Virus record (IMG/VR): IMGVR_UViG_3300044648_000159
Span: 1 to 58,566 of that record
Strand: one strand, 5' to 3'
DNA: 58,566 nucleotides
DNA from: a virus
Part shown: one piece after another, positions 4,365 to 56,634 of the stretch
Layout of the letters: each line of letters begins with the position of its first letter
Position numbering within the stretch: position 1 is the first letter of the stretch
Position numbers and translations under genes: made by a program
Notes under the pieces: generated by a model
What the model was told of the DNA's origin: nothing
The model's input: only the letters and a program-made list of their open reading frames with translations
The model's database searches: none

Positions 4365-5192
4365 ATGAACACAGCAACACCGGCCGTCACCGTCAACGAC
4401 ATCCTGGACCGATTCGAATCGGAGTACATCCCTTACGAGCTCAGCCCGCGTACCGCCCGGGACTACGCCAGGCATGTGCGCGACCTGCGCAGATGGTTTG
4501 GCGAGCGGATAGCGGACGAGATGAGGCCGCGGGACTTCGCGCAGTTCATGAATGTGCGCAAGGGGCGTATCCAGCGGAACAAGCAACTGGCCGTTCTCTC
4601 GTGCGCCTTTCAGCAGGCAGTTTCCTGTTGGTTCATCGTAGACCGCAATCCCTGCAGAGATGTGAAGCGGCATCGCTCACGTCCGCGCGATCGATACATC
4701 ACAGAAGCCGAATTCAGGAGCTTTCAGGTGATGGTGCCGAAGCGCATGAAGATCGCCATGGAGCTGTCTCTGCTCACTGGCCAGCGTCAAGGCGACGTGC
4801 TGTCGCTGAGGTGGTCGCAGGTCGATCGTACTGCAGGCTGCATCCAGATTCAGCAGGGCAAGACCGGCAAGCGTCTCGAAATTGGGATCTCGCCAGCGCT
4901 GTCGGACGTGCTCGATCAGTGCGTCGATATGGCGCCTCCTGGCGAGTACGTCATTCGTCGGAGAGACGGAGAGCGCTACACGTCCGATGGCTTCCGAGCT
5001 ATCTGGCAAAGACACCAACGACGCTGGGCTGCGCTAGGGAACACCAGGTTTAGCTACCATGATATTCGCGCGAAATCAGCTAGCGAATGCAAGACGGTCG
5101 AGGAAGCAATGTTGCTTCTTGGCCACGCAAGCATCGGCATCACGCGCCGAATTTATGACCGCGGAGTGCGTCGAGTTCAACCGCTCAGATAG
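4365..5192 (+). CDS. int: Tyrosine recombinase 1 (phage integrase family)
   Basis: A 275-aa tyrosine recombinase. A SAM-like core-binding domain (about 10-100) is followed by the catalytic domain with Arg141 (GQRQGD), a beta-hairpin Lys (QGKTGK, 166/169), H232-x-x-R235, His254 (LLGHAS) and nucleophile Tyr264 (RRIYDRG). All catalytic residues are present, so it looks active. It has no N-terminal arm-binding domain and no recognisable tRNA or att core downstream. It is a second recombinase besides the one at 12031, so its job (integration, dimer resolution, mobile cargo) is open. Confidence 0.9.
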   Translation: MNTATPAVTVNDILDRFESEYIPYELSPRTARDYARHVRDLRRWFGERIADEMRPRDFAQFMNVRKGRIQRNKQLAVLSCAFQQAVSCWFIVDRNPCRDVKRHRSRPRDRYITEAEFRSFQVMVPKRMKIAMELSLLTGQRQGDVLSLRWSQVDRTAGCIQIQQGKTGKRLEIGISPALSDVLDQCVDMAPPGEYVIRRRDGERYTSDGFRAIWQRHQRRWAALGNTRFSYHDIRAKSASECKTVEEAMLLLGHASIGITRRIYDRGVRRVQPLR

Positions 5193-11866: not shown

Positions 11867-12187
11867 ATGAACACCTACGACTTACGCGAGGCCGCAAGCA
11901 TCGCCAAGGTGCATTTCCAAACCTTGCGGCAAATGGCGGCCAGCAAAAAGCCGGATAGACCGCCAGGCGCTAAGATCGGCCGCGCCTGGGTATTCCCCTG
12001 TCATTTGTTTGACCGATGGATTGAAGAACAATGCCTCTCTACAAAAGACCCGGGTCCGATATCTGGTGGTGCCGCGGGTCAGTCGCTCGCAAACCGTATC
12101 GCAAAACGACGGGAACAGTTGATCGAGAAGAAGCGGAAGAGTTTGAAGAGCGCGAGCGTCAACGACTCTGGAGACTGCACAAGCTAG
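11867..12187 (+). CDS. xis: Excisionase-like winged-helix protein
   Basis: A 106-aa protein whose first 57 residues form an HTH_17/AlpA-type domain (YDLREAASIAKVHFQTLRQM ... KIGRAWVFPCHLFDRWIEEQ), as in excisionases. It overlaps the integrase start by 157 bases in another frame, so the C-terminal half may be a by-product of the overlap. Its place directly before the integrase supports a role as recombination directionality factor. Confidence 0.75.
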   Translation: MNTYDLREAASIAKVHFQTLRQMAASKKPDRPPGAKIGRAWVFPCHLFDRWIEEQCLSTKDPGPISGGAAGQSLANRIAKRREQLIEKKRKSLKSASVNDSGDCTS

Positions 12188-13071
12188 GGGATAAATCGTT
12201 CGTCTTGTGGCGAGACGTTGCTGAGCGCTGGATGAAGACGACGACGAAGCGCTCCCGTGACGTCGACACAATGATCCTCAAATGGCTGGAACCGTATATC
12301 GGTGACGAGCCGATCAAGGCTATCGATCGCGACGCGCTTGATGAGCTACGCCAGGCTGCGCTCGGGGAAGGCTGGGCAGAATCTTCCGTTGACCGCTATA
12401 TGTGCCTCGTGCGTTCCATCCTGAAAGCCTGTGTTGATGATTGGGGATTGTTGGACAAAATGCCCAAGGTGCCCATGTTCAACCCCGAGAAGACCGAACC
12501 GCGGTGGCTGACGAAGGACGAGTGGAAGCGGCTCCATGCCGAGCTCCCCGAGCACTTGCAGTTTGCCGCGCACTTTGCGGTGCTGACTGGTCTGCGCATG
12601 CGCGCCATGCTGGGGCTGACCTGGAATCGCGTCGACCTCAGTGCGTCCCGCCTGTGGGTGCCCGGCCGGCAGCAGAAGGGTAAGCGGACGCTGGGCATCC
12701 CGATCTCTGCCGAGGCGATGCGCGTGCTAAAGAAGCTGCGCAAGCTCAATCCCGAAGGGGATCACGTTTTCCAATGGCAGGGGCAGCCGATCAACGACGT
12801 CAACGGCAAGTCGTACCAGGAGGCGCTACGGCGCGCGGGAATCGAGGGAGCGAACTGGCACACCCTGCGCCACACGTTCGCTTCGTGGGCCGTCCAGGCG
12901 GGCGTGACGCTGCAAGAATTGATGGACCTTGGGGGCTGGCGGGACATCCGATCGGTGCTGGTTTACGCCCACCTTGCGCCCGACCACCTTGCTCAGGCAG
13001 CATCAAAGATCAGTACAAAAAAGGCACAGTCACGGAAAGCGGCAAAACACCAAGAGAGCGAAAATGCTTAA
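12031..13071 (+). CDS. int: Tyrosine recombinase 2, phage integrase
   Basis: A 346-aa integrase with an N-terminal arm-binding region (1-50), a core-binding domain (about 55-145) and a catalytic domain: Arg189 (GLRM), Lys in QQKGK (216/218), H277-x-x-R280, Trp303 in the position often held by His, and Tyr312. It is followed 16 bases later by the 3' part of a tRNA gene, the classical int-attP arrangement, so it is the likely integrase for lysogeny. It is the last gene of the PL operon. Confidence 0.93.
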   Translation: MPLYKRPGSDIWWCRGSVARKPYRKTTGTVDREEAEEFEERERQRLWRLHKLGDKSFVLWRDVAERWMKTTTKRSRDVDTMILKWLEPYIGDEPIKAIDRDALDELRQAALGEGWAESSVDRYMCLVRSILKACVDDWGLLDKMPKVPMFNPEKTEPRWLTKDEWKRLHAELPEHLQFAAHFAVLTGLRMRAMLGLTWNRVDLSASRLWVPGRQQKGKRTLGIPISAEAMRVLKKLRKLNPEGDHVFQWQGQPINDVNGKSYQEALRRAGIEGANWHTLRHTFASWAVQAGVTLQELMDLGGWRDIRSVLVYAHLAPDHLAQAASKISTKKAQSRKAAKHQESENA

Positions 13072-30792: not shown

Positions 30793-31269
30793 TCATCTGC
30801 GACGCGCTTTCTTCACTGCGCGATCGATGGCCTTTCTCGACTCCGAAATAAATACGCTCAGCGCTTCGGACGATTTCTCCGGCACCACCGGGCGCAGCCA
30901 AGGCTTTGCAGGAACTTGCTCATTACCAAACTCAAGCATTCCGCCGTATGCATGCACCGAAGCTCCATTCGGCGCACGATCCTTTCGCCTTAGCCTCACC
31001 AGAACGCGCTCGTTTGCGCCGGATCTCTGGGGGTTCGGATCTCTGCTGACAATCACAGCCTTCTTTAGCGTGCCGGTAGACACACTCGGACGGCCGTCTT
31101 TGTTAGGTTCCGCGACGATGCGATCGATGTTCGCCTTGGCGGCCCGCTGAAAAACTTGTCCAGCCTTTCTAAGTCCGACTCGGACTGGACCACCCTTGAC
31201 GCTCACGATCTCTCGCGGGAGCGCCTCAAGTGTCCTTAGGAGTTCGCCGAGACCTTCAACTTCCGCCAT
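30793..31269 (-). CDS. HK97 gp10-family tail completion protein
   Basis: A 158-aa basic protein: VEGLGELLRTLEALP, AKANIDRIVAE, STGTLKKAVIVSR, GGMLEFG and AKPWLRPV are the HK97_gp10 signatures. It joins head and tail. The 79 bases before its start contain no gene I can support. Confidence 0.9.
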   Translation of the reverse strand: MAEVEGLGELLRTLEALPREIVSVKGGPVRVGLRKAGQVFQRAAKANIDRIVAEPNKDGRPSVSTGTLKKAVIVSRDPNPQRSGANERVLVRLRRKDRAPNGASVHAYGGMLEFGNEQVPAKPWLRPVVPEKSSEALSVFISESRKAIDRAVKKARRR

Positions 31270-31348: not shown

Positions 31349-31873
31349 TCACAGCACGTCGAACAGGCTTGCGGTCTTGAAGCAAGTCAGTGCGCTCCCC
31401 GGAGAACAATTGATTACTTCCGCGTCAGACTTCCAGCGCTGGAACTGCCGCAGCATGCGATGAAAATCAGCGGGAGTTGAGTTCTTCAGTCCCGCTGGGT
31501 GCTTGCCGAAGTAGTGCGTACCGCGCATATCGAGGCCGAGCAGAATGATGCGTGTCGCACCCAACATCAGAGCTACGCGCATTCCCTGTAACCCACTGTT
31601 TGATCCAGTGGGGAACATTGGCTCGGGCTTAAGCCTCTCAGTTCCCCTGTGTTCGCCTCCGCAAAACTTGCGCCCGCCAAACTTCAGTGCGTCGGGGTGC
31701 TGCTTCCACCATTTGATGTCATTGCTCACCATCGCATTCGCCCAAGGCGCGAGCTGGTAGGCATTCGAGACCGCAACGGCTTTGCAGCGCTGCTCGTCGT
31801 GCGCCTGCCTTACGTGCTCGATCTGCTCGGGCGATAAGCTTTGTCCCGTGGCAAGCACCACGCATGTCGTCAT
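31349..31873 (-). CDS. Rossmann-like DUF115/GT29-like protein A
   Basis: A 174-aa protein: CVVLATGQSLSPEQIEHVRQ (nucleotide-type loop), AVAVSNAYQLAPWANAMVSND, NSGLQGMRVALMLGATRIIL and GLDMRGTHYFGKHP. It resembles the Rossmann-like fold of DUF115/MptE-like and sialyltransferase-type proteins found in phages. It is a clear paralog of 34971-35498 (same motifs in order). It lies between DUF3168 and gp10 genes. A glycan or nucleotide-sugar role is inferred only. Confidence 0.75.
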   Translation of the reverse strand: MTTCVVLATGQSLSPEQIEHVRQAHDEQRCKAVAVSNAYQLAPWANAMVSNDIKWWKQHPDALKFGGRKFCGGEHRGTERLKPEPMFPTGSNSGLQGMRVALMLGATRIILLGLDMRGTHYFGKHPAGLKNSTPADFHRMLRQFQRWKSDAEVINCSPGSALTCFKTASLFDVL

Positions 31874-32238
31874 CGATCTGTGAAGAACTCGAAATCGAGC
31901 ATGTAGCCGTAATTTCGGGTCGTCGGATCACGAGGGCGCTGGATGGCGTTGACCATATGAGCGTGCGGCTCGATTGCATTTCGAATGGCGACCGCAGCCG
32001 CATCGGTAGTTGCCTGGGTAGCGCCGTACACGTCGATCTGCACGCGAGAATCGTCCAGATCCGGAAGCTGACCGAGATAGTTGGCCGGCGTGCTGAACGG
32101 CATTTGCCACACGGCATACACAGGAGGCTTGTCCTGGGGCGCTTCACCGAACGGATAGAAGCGCATGTTCGGCGGCGATCCCAGCGCCGCTCTACAGGGC
32201 GCGGATGCGGCGACGATGGCAAAGACTGCGGGCGTCAT
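31870..32238 (-). CDS. DUF3168 tail terminator (gp17-like)
   Basis: A 122-aa protein from ATG 32238. MTPAVFAIVAASAPCRAALG, MRFYPFGEAPQ, YAVWQMPFSTPANYLG and the IDVYGATQATTDAAAVAIRN helix fit DUF3168, the tail-completion protein. It lies before gp10 in transcription order, the reverse of the usual order, and is surrounded by accessory genes. Confidence 0.85.
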   Translation of the reverse strand: MTPAVFAIVAASAPCRAALGSPPNMRFYPFGEAPQDKPPVYAVWQMPFSTPANYLGQLPDLDDSRVQIDVYGATQATTDAAAVAIRNAIEPHAHMVNAIQRPRDPTTRNYGYMLDFEFFTDR

Positions 32239-32240
32239 GT

Positions 32241-32960
32241 CTAGTAGTAGTGATCGTGAATCCAGGGCGACGCCTGAAGCGCCGAGTAACACCAAGGATC
32301 CGGCCGGCCATGAAAAATCACGATGCGGGCACCTTTGGGTAACTTGCTCTGGAATTGCTTCACGCAGTGGTCGCGATAAGAGTAGACACCGTGCTTTGGC
32401 CCCCAACCCGCTAGCTTCTTCCGCATGACGTAGTAGAGCCACGATTGATCGGAGCCCTTCATCTTGCCGTCTTGAGTCGCGAGGCGCGGCGATTTCACCG
32501 GATCGAAGGTGTCCCATATGTCGGTGTGGGCGCCCGCGGTAGCCATCACCATTGACGCGCAGTGCGTGATTGCCGGATTCCCGGTCTCCCACATCAGGAA
32601 GGGTTCTTCGCGGTGGAAAATCGGCGTCAGGTCGTCAGTAACCACTACATCCAGATCCATGAGCACCATGCGCGTGCCGCGGCCAATCAGATCGGCAAAC
32701 CAATCGGAATGCACCTTCAGCCGTCGATAGCAACTCGGGCCGGCGGGCCATGAAGGATTCGGGATGGCGGCGTGGTCGTCCCACAGCGGAATGTGCTCGA
32801 CCTCAGGATCCAGCCCAGTCGCATCGTCCGTCACGCAGATGAAGCGGAACGGATGCGGATAGTGGCGCGCCACCATGCGCCGGAGCGTGTTTACATGGAC
32901 CGGTAAGAACGTGCTGCGGTAGCCAGGCTTTGACCACTTAAACGCGATAACAGCAATCAT
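32241..32960 (-). CDS. Glycosyltransferase (GT-A, GT8-like)
   Basis: A 239-aa protein with HVNTLRRMVARHYPHPFRFI, SCYRRLKVHSDWFADLIG, and MDLDVVV (the DxD metal/nucleotide-sugar motif, about residues 101-107), ending with GARIVIFHGRPDPW. This is the layout of small GT-A glycosyltransferases. Part of a block with GDPD, ATP-grasp and two Rossmann-like proteins. The substrate could be host envelope glycan, virion or DNA. Confidence 0.82.
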   Translation of the reverse strand: MIAVIAFKWSKPGYRSTFLPVHVNTLRRMVARHYPHPFRFICVTDDATGLDPEVEHIPLWDDHAAIPNPSWPAGPSCYRRLKVHSDWFADLIGRGTRMVLMDLDVVVTDDLTPIFHREEPFLMWETGNPAITHCASMVMATAGAHTDIWDTFDPVKSPRLATQDGKMKGSDQSWLYYVMRKKLAGWGPKHGVYSYRDHCVKQFQSKLPKGARIVIFHGRPDPWCYSALQASPWIHDHYY

Positions 32961-33601
32961 TGCATCAACTGCCGCACGCGCATCGTCTCTAGCAGGTGCA
33001 CTCCGTACCCCATCAGGCGCGCAGCCATCGCCCTATCCGCGACTTCGTATGAAACCCATAGGAAGCCGGGCCACACCTGCCCCGTAACGTGCTTCTGGTC
33101 AATGAACACGTACTCGGGCTTGTGTACATCGCAGGCCGCCTGACTTTTCGGGCCTAAGTCGGGAAGGACGAAGCCAATCCGATAACCCTTGACCCGAGCA
33201 AGTAGCGCCGCATCGTGATCGAATGAGACGATCACGCACCGATCCGGGGGGCACACCTCGCACACCCGATCCACGACCGTTCGTGCGCCGAACTTGGTCA
33301 CGCCGTCGCGCTTGATCTCTATGAATGCGGTCGCCTCTCCCAACGCCGCAATGCCTTCCGACAAGGTCTCGACACCGAGAAACTTCAATCCTTCGGCGCT
33401 CGTATCGAACGAATCACGGTCTTTGCCGAACAACCTGAGCAAACAAGCGTCGTGCATCAGGACGGGCACTTGGTCGCTGGACATTTGGACGTCTAATTCG
33501 ACAAACCGAGCACCGAGTTCAACGGCAGAGCGTATTGCGGCGACTGAGTTTTCCCGGTGCTCAAGCGCATTGCCGCGGTGAGCGACGATGCGGTCTCTCA
33601 T
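32957..33601 (-). CDS. Glycerophosphodiester phosphodiesterase family protein
   Basis: A 214-aa protein from ATG 33601. IVAHRGNALEHRENSVAAI, ELGARFVELDVQ and VLMHD contain the catalytic H-R-E-x-D-H set of GDPD enzymes; EIKRD and WVSYEVADRAM fit the rest of the TIM barrel. No signal peptide, so it acts in the cytoplasm or on the virion. It overlaps the glycosyltransferase by four bases, so the two are coupled. Confidence 0.9.
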   Translation of the reverse strand: MRDRIVAHRGNALEHRENSVAAIRSAVELGARFVELDVQMSSDQVPVLMHDACLLRLFGKDRDSFDTSAEGLKFLGVETLSEGIAALGEATAFIEIKRDGVTKFGARTVVDRVCEVCPPDRCVIVSFDHDAALLARVKGYRIGFVLPDLGPKSQAACDVHKPEYVFIDQKHVTGQVWPGFLWVSYEVADRAMAARLMGYGVHLLETMRVRQLMQ

Positions 33602-33801
33602 GTGACTATGCCGTTGCCTGCGGCATATGCGCGATCCTGCTCCGTTAGAACCTTCGGGTTGTCGCCGGATGGAGGAACCTGCCCGTAGCCACCACATCGT
33701 GGACAGATGTGATTGTTCACTCGCATGACAAGCCCGCTTCTATTATCCCCTGTACCGGCGCATAGCCGACACCGACAAGATGTATCTGTCAAACTCAGCA
33801 T
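33598..33801 (-). CDS. DnaJ-type zinc knuckle protein
   Basis: A 67-aa protein with CRCRLCAGTG and CPRCGGYG, a two-site DnaJ-like zinc pattern. Coupled to the GDPD gene by a four-base overlap. Resembles the early protein at 8929-9123. Confidence 0.7.
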   Translation of the reverse strand: MLSLTDTSCRCRLCAGTGDNRSGLVMRVNNHICPRCGGYGQVPPSGDNPKVLTEQDRAYAAGNGIVT

Positions 33802-34115
33802 GGATAGAGAACCTCTCGCGCCCGGTGCTCGCACTTGTACACCTCGACACAGTGATCGGGTTCCCAGAAATAGATGTAGTCCGCGAGCGCGCCCAGAAAC
33901 AACCCGGCGGCGCGCTTCCATCCACGTTCGGTCGAGATCCAGCGGCCCAGCAGCCCTGAGATGGTTTCGCGAGGCAATGCCCACGGCAAGAACACAACCG
34001 CACAGAGGGCCATGTTCAGAACGATGTATATGACGAACACTCGCGAAAGAAATCGACGCCACAGCGGACGACGTGCGGCGATTTGGGTTGCTATCGCTAG
34101 TGCTTCTTCTGCCAC
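33795..34115 (-). CDS. Membrane-associated accessory protein
   Basis: A 106-aa protein taken from GTG 34115, within the end of the ATP-grasp gene. A hydrophobic segment (about 24-46, VIYIVLNMALCAVVFLPWAL) gives one membrane span; the C terminus has WEPDHCVEVYKCEHRAR. It is the only membrane protein of the accessory block and may tether it to the membrane. Confidence 0.6.
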   Translation of the reverse strand: MAEEALAIATQIAARRPLWRRFLSRVFVIYIVLNMALCAVVFLPWALPRETISGLLGRWISTERGWKRAAGLFLGALADYIYFWEPDHCVEVYKCEHRAREVLYPC

Positions 34116-34990
34116 GTTCCAGCCTCGAGTTCGTCCAACATCACATCCCAAATCTGATTCCACGTCTTCCCAGATCCGAAAAACGGGGCAGCGCCACACG
34201 CTCCGGGCGATGGCCAGGGAAAAGCCAAACTGGATTCGATAAATCGCCACTGGTCGCCGTCCTGCAAGACGTCGATTGCACACCAACGTGTGTCGATTGC
34301 AGCAAACACCTGATCGGCATACGCGAGCAGCGACTGAACCTGCGGCGTCACCGTCATGACCGGCCCGACGTTTCCGGTCTGCGCGACTGGTTTATCTGGG
34401 TAGCAATACCGCATGAATGCCGCTCGCTTCGTTCCAACTGCATTCACACGCCACGTCACCGTGTGCGGAATGAACTGCTGCAGAAGTGCGTAGCCTTTCT
34501 GCACCGATCGTGCATTCCCGGCGCAGTGATGCACTGGAACGCCCGCAGCGAACAGCGACGCCACGTGCGCAATCGCCTCGTGCTTGTTCTTCAGGATGCG
34601 AACGTTGACAGAGCTGGCGCCTACATCCGCCTTGCTGACCAGCGGATAGGGCGCGGACTGCTCGCAAAACTGCAAAGCCTCGTCGCGATCCGTGAATCGC
34701 CACGTCGGCGGCATCCATTCCGACCAGCGCCGAAACTGTTCGGACTTGGCCTCGTACACCCTGACCTGTGCCTCGTCCTGAACCATCGTCAATCGAGCGG
34801 ACATCAGGTCGTAGTCGCGCTGGTTCCTCTGCAGCGCCTGCGGCTCGGCATGGCACCGAATGAAGCCGACGCCGTCTGTATTCACTTCCTCGCCGCGGAA
34901 GATCCGCCGGGCATCGTACCCGCGGGCCTTTGCCGCTTTGATGAGCGACTCGAACCACACGTGACGCTCGTCAAGAACAAATAACTTCAC
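34097..34990 (-). CDS. ATP-grasp-like protein
   Basis: A 297-aa protein. A Rossmann-like N-terminal part (about 1-90) is followed by YPLVSKADVGASSVNVRIL (ATP-binding Lys and Gly-rich loop) and AIDVLQDGDQWRFIESSLAF (acidic metal ligands), the order found in ATP-grasp ligases. Overlaps paralog B by 20 bases. It probably ligates an amino or carboxyl group in the pathway of this block; substrate unknown. Confidence 0.75.
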   Translation of the reverse strand: MKLFVLDERHVWFESLIKAAKARGYDARRIFRGEEVNTDGVGFIRCHAEPQALQRNQRDYDLMSARLTMVQDEAQVRVYEAKSEQFRRWSEWMPPTWRFTDRDEALQFCEQSAPYPLVSKADVGASSVNVRILKNKHEAIAHVASLFAAGVPVHHCAGNARSVQKGYALLQQFIPHTVTWRVNAVGTKRAAFMRYCYPDKPVAQTGNVGPVMTVTPQVQSLLAYADQVFAAIDTRWCAIDVLQDGDQWRFIESSLAFPWPSPGACGAAPFFGSGKTWNQIWDVMLDELEAGTWQKKH

Positions 34991-35498
34991 GCAACTCGCC
35001 CATTGGAAACCGTTTCAGCGCCGAACCCGGCGTGCAGTTGATGACCTCGCCCTGACGCCAGCCGTCGAACTGCTTTAGAAACGCCGCGAACCTTGCGGGC
35101 GTCGTGTTCTTCAGTGGCTCGGGGTGCGCGCCGAAGTAATGCGTGCCGTGCATGTCGAAGCCGAGCAACAGGATACGGCTCGCGCGAAACACGTCCCGCG
35201 CAACGCGCATGCCTTGCAGGCCGCTGTTCACCCCGGAATTGAACTCGCCGGTCTGCTCCAGGCGCTCCACACCGGGATAAGGCACGCCACAGAATCTGCG
35301 ACCCTGGAACTTCGACGCGTCCGGGTTGTTCAACCACCAGTTGCTGTCGTTGCTCACGATCGCATCGGCCCATGGCGCCAGCTTGTACATGTCCGAGATG
35401 GCCACAGCGCCGCACTTCCCAGCTTCATGCACTTCGCGAACGTATTCCACTTGCTCAGCCGTTACCGACTGACCAGTGGCGAGCACGACGAAGTCCAA
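34971..35498 (-). CDS. Rossmann-like DUF115/GT29-like protein B
   Basis: A 175-aa paralog of 31349-31873: FVVLATGQSVTAEQVEYVRE, VAISDMYKLAPWADAIVSND, NSGLQGMRVARDVFRASRIL, GFDMHGTHYFGAHP, CTPGSAL. First gene of the accessory block, directly after the head closure gene. The duplication within one operon suggests two related acceptor or donor specificities. Confidence 0.75.
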   Translation of the reverse strand: MDFVVLATGQSVTAEQVEYVREVHEAGKCGAVAISDMYKLAPWADAIVSNDSNWWLNNPDASKFQGRRFCGVPYPGVERLEQTGEFNSGVNSGLQGMRVARDVFRASRILLLGFDMHGTHYFGAHPEPLKNTTPARFAAFLKQFDGWRQGEVINCTPGSALKRFPMGELREVICS

Positions 35499-35852
35499 TC
35501 ACGCTCCGTCGTTCACGCCTTCACTGCACGGGGCAGTGACGTATTCGAGGCCGCTGTCAGGGTCTGCCAGCCATCCGGCAGGGTTGTATATCTTGCCGGT
35601 GCTCGGATGAAGGATGCGCATTTGCGCAGTCAGCCCCTGGCGATGACGGATCGTGATTCGTGCGGTGATCTGGCTCTGCATCTGCTGGCTTGCGATAAAC
35701 TCGCGCACACTCAATGGTTCGATCGCTGCGGCCACATTCGTTGCGAAGTCCTGCCAAACGGTTCGCATCTCGCCCGTCGCAGGATCCTGCGCGTTGTGCT
35801 GCCTTTGAATGCTTATTCGGTGCCGAAGGCGACCAGCTGCTAACGTCGGCAT
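35499..35852 (-). CDS. Head closure protein (SPP1 gp16-like)
   Basis: A 117-aa protein: LRHRISIQRQH, TGEMRTVWQDFATNVAAAI, RITIRHRQGL and MRILHPSTGKIYN fit the head-tail joining family. Adjacent stop and start with the gene before. Confidence 0.9.
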   Translation of the reverse strand: MPTLAAGRLRHRISIQRQHNAQDPATGEMRTVWQDFATNVAAAIEPLSVREFIASQQMQSQITARITIRHRQGLTAQMRILHPSTGKIYNPAGWLADPDSGLEYVTAPCSEGVNDGA

Positions 35853-35854
35853 GA

Positions 35855-36223
35855 CTAAGCCAACGCTGGATCGCGCAACGGGTAGAGGATGGCCGTCACG
35901 GGCATCGGCAGATGCCCCTGATCAAATACCGGCCTGAAGCTACCTTCTCCACCCTCGTCCCGGTTGCGCCACAAGTATCCGACGAGAATCTTCGTGGCCT
36001 GCTGCACCTCCGGCCGGACGACCTCGGTGTAGACGATATCGTCATTGCTATCGACCACCGGATCGCCGGCGCTGTCGATCTCCGCCACATATGGGGATGC
36101 GCTCTTGAGATAGTTCAGCACCATCGCTGAGGCGGCATCGACGACTTCCTGGAGCTCGTCCTCATCGACCTCGTCGCCGCCACGGATCTGCAGCAGCGCT
36201 TGCTCAACGGTGATGAGCGCCAT
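35855..36223 (-). CDS. Head-tail connector (gp6-like adaptor)
   Basis: A 122-aa acidic helical protein (MALITVEQALLQIRGGDEVD, VDAASAMVLNYLKS, ATKILVGYLWRNRDE), matching gp6/gp15-like adaptors that bind the portal ring. Ends in LYPLRDPALA, typical of the family. Confidence 0.88.
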   Translation of the reverse strand: MALITVEQALLQIRGGDEVDEDELQEVVDAASAMVLNYLKSASPYVAEIDSAGDPVVDSNDDIVYTEVVRPEVQQATKILVGYLWRNRDEGGEGSFRPVFDQGHLPMPVTAILYPLRDPALA

Positions 36224-37158
36224 CAGGAGCCCCTCCCGTCACGACCTTTCTTCACGGCAAGGCGCCAGTCAGGTGACTGACCGGGCTTCCCACTCGGCGC
36301 GTCCTTCTGCGAGATCCAGTAGCTACCGTCGGCCGTCACCGCATCACCGCGCTCGTATGTGCGATCGGCCTTGTATACACCGCGCTCGAGCACGACCGGA
36401 ACCGTAAATTTGAACTCTTTGCGCTGCTCGCCCCGTTCGTGGATAAACGTGAAAGCGCGCTCGCCGTCGTGCTCGACGCGCAGATCATCGAAACCAAGGC
36501 CGTCTGCCCCGTCCTTTCCGTTCACACCGTCACGGCCATCCTTCGGTTTGTCGAAGGACGCCAGCAGACGCGTGTGGATGTCCTGTGCGCGCCGCTCGAA
36601 ATCTAGCGCCCACTTGTCGAACGCTTGCTGGAAATGCGGAAGAACATCGTCAACGGTGACTGACTTGCCGTCGGATCCGCGCTCGCCATCGCGCCCGTTC
36701 TGCGGCAACGGGATGGACTTGAGAAAACCATCGATAATTGGGCGTACATCGTCGATGGTGATGCTCTTGCCGTCGACCCCATCGCGGCCAGGGATGCCAT
36801 CTTTCCCATCAACACCGTCACGACCATCCTTGCCGTCTGCTCCAGGCTGTCCCGGTGCTCCGTCTTTTCCATCAATACCGTCTCGGCCATCTGTGCCAGA
36901 CGCACCATCCTTACCGTCAACACCGTCTTCTCCTTTCTCGCCCCGATCTCCGGGAGGGCCCACCTCACCCTTCTCGCCCGGATCACCCTTGATGGACTCG
37001 CCGGGAGCGCCACGCTCGCCGGGATCGCCTTTCTCGCCCTTCTCCGGCTGGAGCTGCTCGAGCGCCGTCAATCGCTCGACAATCGGCCCAATGGCTTTCC
37101 CACAGTACTCCTTGACGATGGCCGCAACTGACTTGGCCCATTCAACCGGGTCGTTCAT
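36223..37158 (-). CDS. Collagen-like protein with C-terminal carbohydrate-type domain
   Basis: A 311-aa protein from ATG 37158. The N terminus is helical. About residues 40-135 form Gly-X-Y repeats (GEKGDPGERGAPGES-like units rich in KGD/RGD triplets), a collagen triple helix; a shorter stretch follows near 205-220. The last 60 residues (YERGDAVTADGSYWISQ, GQSPDWRLAVKKGRDGRGS) resemble a small carbohydrate-binding-type domain of phage fibres. Trimeric fibre expected; its place between portal and connectors is unusual. Confidence 0.88.
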   Translation of the reverse strand: MNDPVEWAKSVAAIVKEYCGKAIGPIVERLTALEQLQPEKGEKGDPGERGAPGESIKGDPGEKGEVGPPGDRGEKGEDGVDGKDGASGTDGRDGIDGKDGAPGQPGADGKDGRDGVDGKDGIPGRDGVDGKSITIDDVRPIIDGFLKSIPLPQNGRDGERGSDGKSVTVDDVLPHFQQAFDKWALDFERRAQDIHTRLLASFDKPKDGRDGVNGKDGADGLGFDDLRVEHDGERAFTFIHERGEQRKEFKFTVPVVLERGVYKADRTYERGDAVTADGSYWISQKDAPSGKPGQSPDWRLAVKKGRDGRGS

Positions 37159-38513
37159 GCGGCTAACAGCTCCAACTTGAGCGCGTCGAGTGATTTTCGA
37201 TTCCACTCGGCACGACGTTCCTCTGACTCATCATTGACCGGCGGCGCGGGCGCTGGTGCGGGTGTATCCGACTTGCCGAACGGATCGTCTTTTGCGTCTC
37301 GCTTGGCGAGAGCTGCAAGGCTGAAGTTCTGCTGCTGCAGGTAGAGCACGTCGCCTCCTACCTGAGGCGCCCAGTTCTCCATGCGACGCGCTTCGTTCGG
37401 CGCGAGCAATGCGCCGCTGATCGCCTTGATGTGCGAATCCAGCCGAGTCGCCGGATCCATTCGCAGCAACACCCCTTCGTCGAGCCACACTTCAGACGGA
37501 TCGCCCACCTCAAGCCCTTCCTTGAGGCGACGCTCGATGTTCTCGACGATCGGCTGCAGCGCCTGGTCGTAGTACTGTTGGTTCAGCGCCGCCACGTTAT
37601 TCGTCGTTGGCATCTGTCCCAGCCCTAGTTTGTACGGCGGGACGTGAAACGTTGCGCAGATCATCTCGCCGGTGAACTTCAACTGCTCGATAAGCTGCGA
37701 GTCCTCGGCAGTGATCGTCATGGCTTCGTACTTCAGGCCATCGCCGAGCACTGCAACCTTGCCGAAGTTGGCACCGCTGTAGTTCTCCTGCCAAGCGGTC
37801 TTCAATCGCCCAGCAGTCTCATCGGAAATGGAGCCCGGCGCGGTGAGCAAACCGCTCGGCCGGCTCATGTTTGCAAACAACAGTGCACTGTTCTGCTGGA
37901 TCGCTGCGCCCTGCATGGCGGCGATACCACAGGCGAATATTGGAGATACACCTATGAGCGGGTGGTACAGCGTCCACAACCGATCGTGAATCATCTCACT
38001 CGCAGGTACGACGATGCTTTCTTCGACATTGGAAAGCCGATCCTCACTGAGTTGGTAGTAGATACCGCCATCCTCAGTGATTAAGGGCATCACTTTGCAC
38101 GGATCCAGGATATACAGTGCAACTACGAAGCCACGCTCGTCACGCTGCTTGAGGATGTAGGTGTTGCCATTCAAAAGCAGTGACAGTACCCATAGCCGCA
38201 TGAACTCGCAGTAGGTCTGATAGCGATTGGGCTTACGCAGTAATGGACGCTCGCGCGTCGCTACAAAAATGCGTTGTGTGCTGTCGTAGTTCATCACCGT
38301 CGCCGGCATCTTGCCGATGTCGCCGGCAATCAGCGTCGCACACGAAAATACAGCCCAGTTTTGTACGACCGTTGCGCGGTCTATTTCAACGTTCTGTTGC
38401 CAGGCGCCCGTAAAGGACTCGAGCACGCGCGGCCACCATGACCACGTGCTGCCTCCGATGGGCGAGAGATACGAGGCCGCTTTATAGAACAGGGCGGCGA
38501 CCTGCTTCTTCAC
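37155..38513 (-). CDS. HK97-type portal protein
   Basis: A 452-aa protein from GTG 38513. AVFSCATLIAGDIGKMPATV, LLLNGNTYILKQRDERG, HPLIGVSPIFACGIAAM, GGDVLYLQQQN-type C terminus are typical of HK97 portal proteins. It forms the dodecameric DNA channel. Overlaps the collagen-like gene by four bases. Confidence 0.95.
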   Translation of the reverse strand: MKKQVAALFYKAASYLSPIGGSTWSWWPRVLESFTGAWQQNVEIDRATVVQNWAVFSCATLIAGDIGKMPATVMNYDSTQRIFVATRERPLLRKPNRYQTYCEFMRLWVLSLLLNGNTYILKQRDERGFVVALYILDPCKVMPLITEDGGIYYQLSEDRLSNVEESIVVPASEMIHDRLWTLYHPLIGVSPIFACGIAAMQGAAIQQNSALLFANMSRPSGLLTAPGSISDETAGRLKTAWQENYSGANFGKVAVLGDGLKYEAMTITAEDSQLIEQLKFTGEMICATFHVPPYKLGLGQMPTTNNVAALNQQYYDQALQPIVENIERRLKEGLEVGDPSEVWLDEGVLLRMDPATRLDSHIKAISGALLAPNEARRMENWAPQVGGDVLYLQQQNFSLAALAKRDAKDDPFGKSDTPAPAPAPPVNDESEERRAEWNRKSLDALKLELLAA

Positions 38514-56302: not shown

Positions 56303-56363
56303 GGTACAGCATGCTGAACTGCCTAGTCAAGGATGCTGGACTGGCTGTTATCTATGCTGTGCC
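56303..56363. promoter_or_regulatory. OR-like region: three operators and divergent promoters
   Basis: Three 18-bp sites: GGTACAGCATGCTGAACT (56303-56320), AGTCAAGGATGCTGGACT (56325-56342) and a weaker one at 56346-56363 (half-site GGCACAGCAT on the minus strand). Centres are 22 and 21 bp apart. The leftward promoter has TTGACT in the middle site and TACCTT in the first. The rightward cI promoter has TATGCT at 56353-56358 and no good -35, like PRM. Confidence 0.88.
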
Positions 56364-56364
56364 G

Positions 56365-56634
56365 ATGGAAACAATGGGCGATCGAATTAGACAGCTTAGG
56401 GTCGCGCGTGGGCTGACTCAGCCGGCGCTGGGCGAACTATGCGGGGGCGTCACGAAGAGTGCTGTCAGCCAGTGGGAAGACGGCAGCACCGAGAACATCA
56501 AACTAAAGACGTTTATCCGTCTGTGCGAAGTGCTCCAGACGGACCCTCAATATCTGATCTGGGGCGCGGATCGCTCTCCGTCTGGGCCTCAGGGGGCGGC
56601 CGCACGCTTCCGCAAGCCCAGCATCGTTCGTTAA
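56365..56634 (+). CDS. cI: CI-like prophage repressor, short form
   Basis: An 89-aa protein, mainly an XRE helix-turn-helix domain (MGDRIRQLRVARGLTQPALG, TKSAVSQWEDGS, LKTFIRLCEVLQTDPQYLIW). No C-terminal S24 peptidase domain follows, so RecA-induced self-cleavage is not possible. ATG 56365 is seven bases after the TATGCT -10, so the message is probably leaderless as in lambda PRM; ATG 56374 is the alternative. Confidence 0.88.
   Translation: METMGDRIRQLRVARGLTQPALGELCGGVTKSAVSQWEDGSTENIKLKTFIRLCEVLQTDPQYLIWGADRSPSGPQGAAARFRKPSIVR

Follow-up and report, generated by a model that had tools for sequence, protein, structure and literature searches.

Only a few phages, most of them mycobacterial, are on record as having glycosylated virions. 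For mycobacteriophage Che8 and its relatives, capsid and tail-tube proteins have been proposed as targets of phage-encoded glycosyltransferases, and mycobacteriophage glycans on proteins of these two kinds are reported (Freeman 2023 as cited in PMC11256854 and PMC12619734). Phage-borne glycosyltransferases are also found in Gtr serotype-conversion cassettes. Here we describe seven accessory genes among the head-tail connector genes of a 58.6-kb virus record from IMG/VR (IMGVR_UViG_3300044648_000159; this whole stretch of DNA is called the window), coding for B, an ATP-grasp protein, a small membrane protein, a zinc ribbon, a glycerophosphodiester phosphodiesterase-like protein (GDPD), a GT8-like glycosyltransferase (GT), and A, where A and B belong to the protein family phrog_4603. 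Probably, this block is an accessory cassette for the late glycosylation of virion proteins and one version of a variable island in the late morphogenesis genes of tailed phages.

As in Che8 and its relatives, capsid and tail-tube proteins are among the candidate targets. The glycosyltransferases of Maravista lie near the 3' genome end (PMC11256854), unlike the connector location in the window. Like the Gtr cassettes, the block contains phage-borne glycosyltransferases; unlike them, it encodes neither a GtrA flippase nor GtrB, has a single membrane protein with only one span, and forms part of a late operon, whereas Gtr cassettes are expressed in lysogens. We know of no phrog_4603 marker for mycobacteriophage glycosylation, and in the open-access literature searched, neither the island nor the role of phrog_4603 as its marker was found described. 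Phage-encoded glycosylation is already known, but neither the present arrangement nor its breadth seems to have been reported.

Relatives in Isolated Phages

The P1/P7 operon pmgO-pmgP-ppp-pmgQ (hdmB-hdmC-ppp-hdmD) resembles the window in combining two phrog_4603 genes with a phrog_1962 glycosyltransferase and a phosphoesterase and in belonging to the lytic stage. In contrast to the window, it lies near the baseplate genes of a myophage, possesses the phosphatase Ppp in place of GDPD, and has no ATP-grasp gene. HdmB/PmgO and HdmC/PmgP are members of the A family, and HdmD/PmgQ matches phrog_1962, to which the window GT also belongs, at 2.5e-128. In P7, the hdm operon, counterpart of pmg in P1, follows an annotated operator controlled by the C1 repressor, so that it should be off in lysogens and expressed during lytic growth. 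Single-gene work in P1 found pmgO, pmgP, ppp, and pmgQ to be dispensable under laboratory conditions (PMC10695390), which fits a modification role, and pmgO in particular is dispensable for plaque formation (PMC9024508, PMC10695390). As we read them, the P1/P7 data argue for an accessory lytic-stage activity and not for an essential connector component or a function restricted to lysogeny.

D3, PAJU2, Psp6, and Mulvp2 carry A together with a GT9-like protein and a methyltransferase; as in the window, the A-family gene is situated among connector or late genes, although this triad comes without GT8, GDPD, or ATP-grasp. In phiNP, A is accompanied by a second family member (A') and a GT8-like gene. 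The Tetraselmis phage S20 has A, GT-D, A', a methyltransferase, GT2, and FkbM, plus a glycosyltransferase 46% identical to the window GT, and in CcrSC, A, GT-like genes, a methyltransferase, and GT9 come straight after the tail-fibre genes.

Evidence for a Putative Virion Glycosylation Cassette

Virion glycosylation is favored because the A/B family recurs beside connector genes, the cargo changes by lineage yet stays sugar-themed (epimerase, GT2, GT-D, GT8, GT9, FkbM and other methyltransferases), and motifs are intact. By inference, a glycan chemistry is well supported; the virion as its target, catalysis, and the identity of the sugar we infer only. The island enzymes would work in the cytoplasm during particle assembly, in the late lytic phase, when the GT8-like enzyme and A/B most likely use nucleotide sugars of the host to glycosylate a virion protein; candidate acceptors are the capsid, the tail tube, the collagen-like protein, and the fibres. 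Clade-specific ATP-grasp and GDPD proteins, and an optional methyltransferase or zinc gene, might adjust or edit the product.

A motif search of IMG/VR with the A family led to 36 loci, and in all 36, A adjoins gp6, Hc1, gp10, DUF3168, or a capsid gene. In about 20 other lineages, variable islands of sugar enzymes are present at the corresponding site, with the A/B family as their marker. The position of A shifts (before Hc1, after Hc1, after the major capsid protein gene, or beside the tail fibre). Islands in L018/L019 carry a UDP-sugar epimerase, FkbM, GT2, GT-D, and GT8, the epimerase match among the island cargo reaching 1e-62. A methyltransferase plus a GT-B-like gene is found in L017, L038, L045, and L048, sets of GT-B-like, GT-like, and methyltransferase genes in L033, L036, and L044, a GT-D/methyltransferase fusion with A', GT2, and GT8 in L027, A' with a radical SAM protein, FkbM, and GT8 in L022, and a GT9-like gene in L057. 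Profile searches against the PDB gave no confirmation for the GT-B-like and GT9-like cargo families, which are GT-like by pattern only. When loci were sampled by their portal gene and A was ignored, A occurred in nine of 10 informative loci, and L068, which is without A, is also without cargo; this control is small and confined to one portal clade.

Four loci with the same island (L040, L042, L043, and L047) have in-frame TAG codons throughout their late genes, often at glutamine and in some cases at glutamate columns; L040, L042, and L047 yield full-length genes when TAG is read as glutamine and therefore look recoded. HNH-endonuclease-like genes, recognized by eye, are located in or beside the island in L010 (5323-5901, in a region also seen as L072) and in L017 (7615-8499).

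It is possible, though we would not yet lean toward it, that phrog_4603 proteins, as conserved transferases encoded among the morphogenesis genes, are the common core of a widespread and unrecognized virion-decorating phage system in which the accompanying sugar, methyl, phosphodiester, and ligase genes are exchanged, so that each lineage obtains its own glycan "serotype"; the system would extend over HK97-type siphophages, P1, Caulobacter jumbo phages, and TAG-recoded phages. If the islands act on virions, lineage-specific glycans would be present on the surface of many proteobacterial-type phages, among them the temperate P1 and D3. This would matter for adsorption and stability of the particle, for its recognition by antibodies, and for escape from defences directed at the surface, and it would assign a role to P1 genes that have been called "putative morphogenetic" for two decades.

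Conservation and Origin of the Block

Instead of being scattered and independent in relatives, the genes for B, ATP-grasp, membrane protein, GDPD, and GT are kept in this order in six adequately covered genomes (window, L009, L010, L011, L016, and L028), and a partial core set is present in L008 and L060. The slot between membrane protein and GDPD is empty in L009, L010, L016, and L028, contains a methyltransferase in L011/L008, and contains the zinc ribbon only in the window. For block genes of the window compared with L009, L010, and L011, ratios of nonsynonymous to synonymous substitution rates (dN/dS) are 0.03-0.21 (0.03-0.05 for GT), in the same range as for portal, capsid, and tail genes, these values being rough because synonymous sites are near saturation. 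Purifying selection on the block is thus estimated to be as strong as on the portal and capsid genes. In L016 (3371-4845), the GT8-like gene occurs in two tandem copies.

A and B, which the original prediction had described as paralogs, are 58% identical members of the same family. Its suggestion that their duplication shows how the insertion arose is not supported. In L016 and L028, B is present, A is absent, and the order gp10-DUF3168 is canonical; in the tree, their B proteins fall inside the B clade, whereas the window A belongs to a separate supported clade. Since both loci carry the block with B only and their B sits in the B clade, the duplication is, as judged from this tree, older than the window's lineage and offers no explanation for the insertion. 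Likewise, the idea of a specific pathway for a phosphodiester-linked sugar is not supported, as ATP-grasp and GDPD were found in the window's clade only and other islands lack them.

Cargo Enzymes

In alignments, no loss of catalytic residues is seen for GDPD or for the DxD motif of GT. GT residues D102, D104, G169, D171, and Q172 are invariant; D102 and D104 are kept in ten homologs. GT also has the GSDQ motif. Profile likeness and DxD motif agree in predicting that GT is a GT8/glycogenin-like glycosyltransferase. The GDPD catalytic residues (HR, EN, ExD, HD, EIK) are conserved in seven homologs.

For the ATP-grasp protein, whose structural model is of low confidence (predicted local distance difference test, pLDDT, 57), Foldseek finds ArgX (2.4e-11), RimK (about 1e-9), LysX, and Ddl, and a profile search against the PDB gives a weak match to D-Ala-D-Ala ligase (0.005). 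At its metal-binding E-x-N motif, the alignment has E252-x-S254, without the usual asparagine. The membrane protein weakly matches phrog_3342 (3e-4), a family of unknown function, and neither it nor the ATP-grasp protein has a match in the annotated phages searched. The zinc ribbon was considered as a LysW-like carrier beside a LysX/ArgX-like ATP-grasp protein; this was rejected, as the gene is absent in relatives and its product is without a C-terminal glutamate.

The A/B Proteins

Both proteins match the phrog_4603 profile at full length, A at 5.3e-31 over residues 8-174 and B at 1.3e-23 over residues 7-174. The PHROG name of phrog_4603 is alpha-2,3-sialyltransferase. A broad A-family profile (A1) has its best PDB matches in GT42 sialyltransferases, nine GT42 chains being found at marginal values of 3.5e-4 to 0.11; in the broad A1 alignment, no stretch is conserved enough for alignment-wide pattern searches. 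The GPSL, NSG, and GxD motifs of A/B, within a predicted Rossmann-type fold, resemble those of GT42 sialyltransferases (CstI/CstII) and MptE/DUF115 proteins, although A/B comprise only about 175 amino acids and the likeness is marginal. Residues of pocket type are conserved in the A/B family (G10, S12, D52, S93, G113, D115, H120, and H125). The label "alpha-2,3-sialyltransferase" is, on profile evidence, too specific for phrog_4603, because the broad profile reaches GT42 at 3.5e-4 and a narrower one (A2) does not, whereas "GT42/MptE-like" seems fair. RefSeq records NC_002484 and NC_005856 carry "alpha-2;3-sialyltransferase" on D3 orf7 and P1 pmgO, the same as the PHROG name; support for this exact activity is weak here.

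Weighing of Alternative Explanations

Several results weigh against a glycosylation cassette built around A/B. The PDB search with A2 gave no GT42 match, and Foldseek with the A model (pLDDT 92) found nothing in the PDB at E < 1e-3, and its top 50 entries do not include GT42. The resemblance of A/B to DUF115 proteins and sialyltransferases that had been considered earlier is weakly backed by sequence likeness and by predicted viral structures, where the A model matches uncultured phage proteins, some annotated as MptE-like, but not by a significant PDB fold match. For several of the cargo proteins, nothing in Pfam or the PDB matches, and A stands without cargo in some lineages (L023/L058, L041, L050/L051, and L053). 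In PAJU2, the A homolog ORF010 is annotated "structural protein," so that A might be a virion component. Finally, the window phage is probably temperate, as it has two tyrosine integrase genes (4365-5192 and 12031-13071) and a repressor-like gene (56311-56634), and effects in lysogeny would be possible. Scans of bacterial genome contigs, one based on the A motif and one on the portal, revealed neither a relative nor a prophage related to the window phage.

A rival explanation that we consider unlikely has the cassette alter the surface glycans of the host in late infection or prevent superinfection. In its favor, envelope-modifying transferases are known from phages, the window phage carries two integrases and a repressor, one block protein is membrane-spanning, and the usual substrates of GDPD are phospholipid-derived diesters. 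However, the block shows no flippase or bactoprenol transferase of Gtr type, membrane segments are lacking in GT, GDPD, and B, A has only one borderline hydrophobic stretch, the related P7 operon lies under a C1-repressor operator, and all mapped IMG/VR loci are within structural genes. Of the functions originally envisaged, an accessory, late, glycan-type system stands, with virion glycosylation preferred, while superinfection exclusion becomes less likely, given the missing flippase and the P7 operator.

It seems rather improbable that A/B are structural or assembly-chaperone neck proteins with the enzymes as mere neighbors. The PAJU2 label is the main point for this, joined by the morphogenetic names of the P1/P7 homologs and by those lineages in which A occurs alone. 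On the other side, P1 does not need pmgO for plaques, and the shifting position of A, the conserved pocket-type residues, and the repeated company of sugar enzymes speak against this rival. We give little credence to a plain hotspot of unrelated morons whose co-location with A is meaningless: the content is highly variable, HNH-like genes insert as well (L017, L010), and gp10 changed its place on more than one occasion, but the cargo is overwhelmingly of sugar transferase/methyltransferase type across lineages, and the core set shows conserved order in six genomes and strong purifying selection. Modification of phage DNA bases or of a small metabolite is very improbable, since, although DNA-hypermodifying phage glycosyltransferases are known (Pyle 2024, cited in PMC12619734), the block lies in the late structural operon and not among replication genes, and DNA hypermodification was rejected for want of a gene of the thymidylate-synthase/hydroxymethylase family in the window record.

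Layout of the Block and Neighboring Genes

The late genes of the window are on the minus strand in the order capsid, portal, collagen-like protein, gp6, Hc1, block, gp10, major tail protein, and tape measure. The accessory block was found where it had been described, amid the head-tail connector genes of the late operon, with small corrections of coordinates (Table 1). The longest open frame for GDPD, extending to 33697, is judged too long.

Table 1. Genes of the block and its borders in the window.
Feature	Position	Strand	Evidence
Hc1 head closure, upstream border of island	35499-35852	-	PF05521 (Phage_HCP) 3e-24
B, phrog_4603 / GT42-MptE-like, 175 aa, TTG start	34971-35498	-	phrog_4603 1e-23; 58% identical to A; purifying selection
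ATP-grasp protein, 297 aa, GTG start, RimK/LysX/ArgX or Ddl-like fold	34097-34990	-	Foldseek; profile vs PDB
Small membrane protein, GTG start, one transmembrane segment near residues 26-44	33795-34115	-	KD19 max 2.56; phrog_3342 3e-4
Zinc-ribbon protein, 67 aa, optional insert	33598-33801	-	CxxC pairs; weak DnaJ_CXXCXGXG/Anti-TRAP Pfam matches
GDPD, cytosolic glycerophosphodiester phosphodiesterase-like	32957-33601	-	Pfam 6e-20; PDB 1o1z 2e-11
GT8-like glycosyltransferase, DxD = D102-L-D104	32241-32960	-	phrog_1962 1.6e-13; glycogenin-1 6e-4 (profile vs PDB)
Tail terminator DUF3168/gp17, structural gene between rest of block and A	31870-32238	-	PF11367 1.6e-11; phrog_78
A, phrog_4603 / GT42-MptE-like, 174 aa	31349-31873	-	phrog_4603 5e-31; AlphaFold pLDDT 92
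gp10-like tail completion/neck protein, downstream border	30793-31269	-	phrog_5 1e-12

The statement that all genes overlap by a few bases applies to most junctions, which overlap by 4-20 bp (B/ATP-grasp 20, ATP-grasp/membrane protein 19, membrane protein/zinc ribbon 7, and zinc ribbon/GDPD, GDPD/GT, and DUF3168/A 4 each), but not to Hc1/B, which abut, nor to GT/DUF3168 and A/gp10, which are separated by gaps of 2 and 79 bp, respectively. The reversed order of gp17 and gp10 is confirmed: DUF3168 comes ahead of gp10 with A in between, an arrangement peculiar to the window's clade, whereas most other mapped loci have gp10 first. The gp10 gene was relocated at least two times, to a place after DUF3168 and A in the window's clade and to a place after the major tail protein in the separate recoded clade L040/L042/L047.

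The gene for the collagen-like protein (36223-37164; Pfam Collagen 7e-15) adjoins the portal gene and occurs in relatives whether or not they have A. At its C terminus, the protein resembles the final section of some phrog "portal protein" profiles and thus looks like a piece split from a portal fusion.

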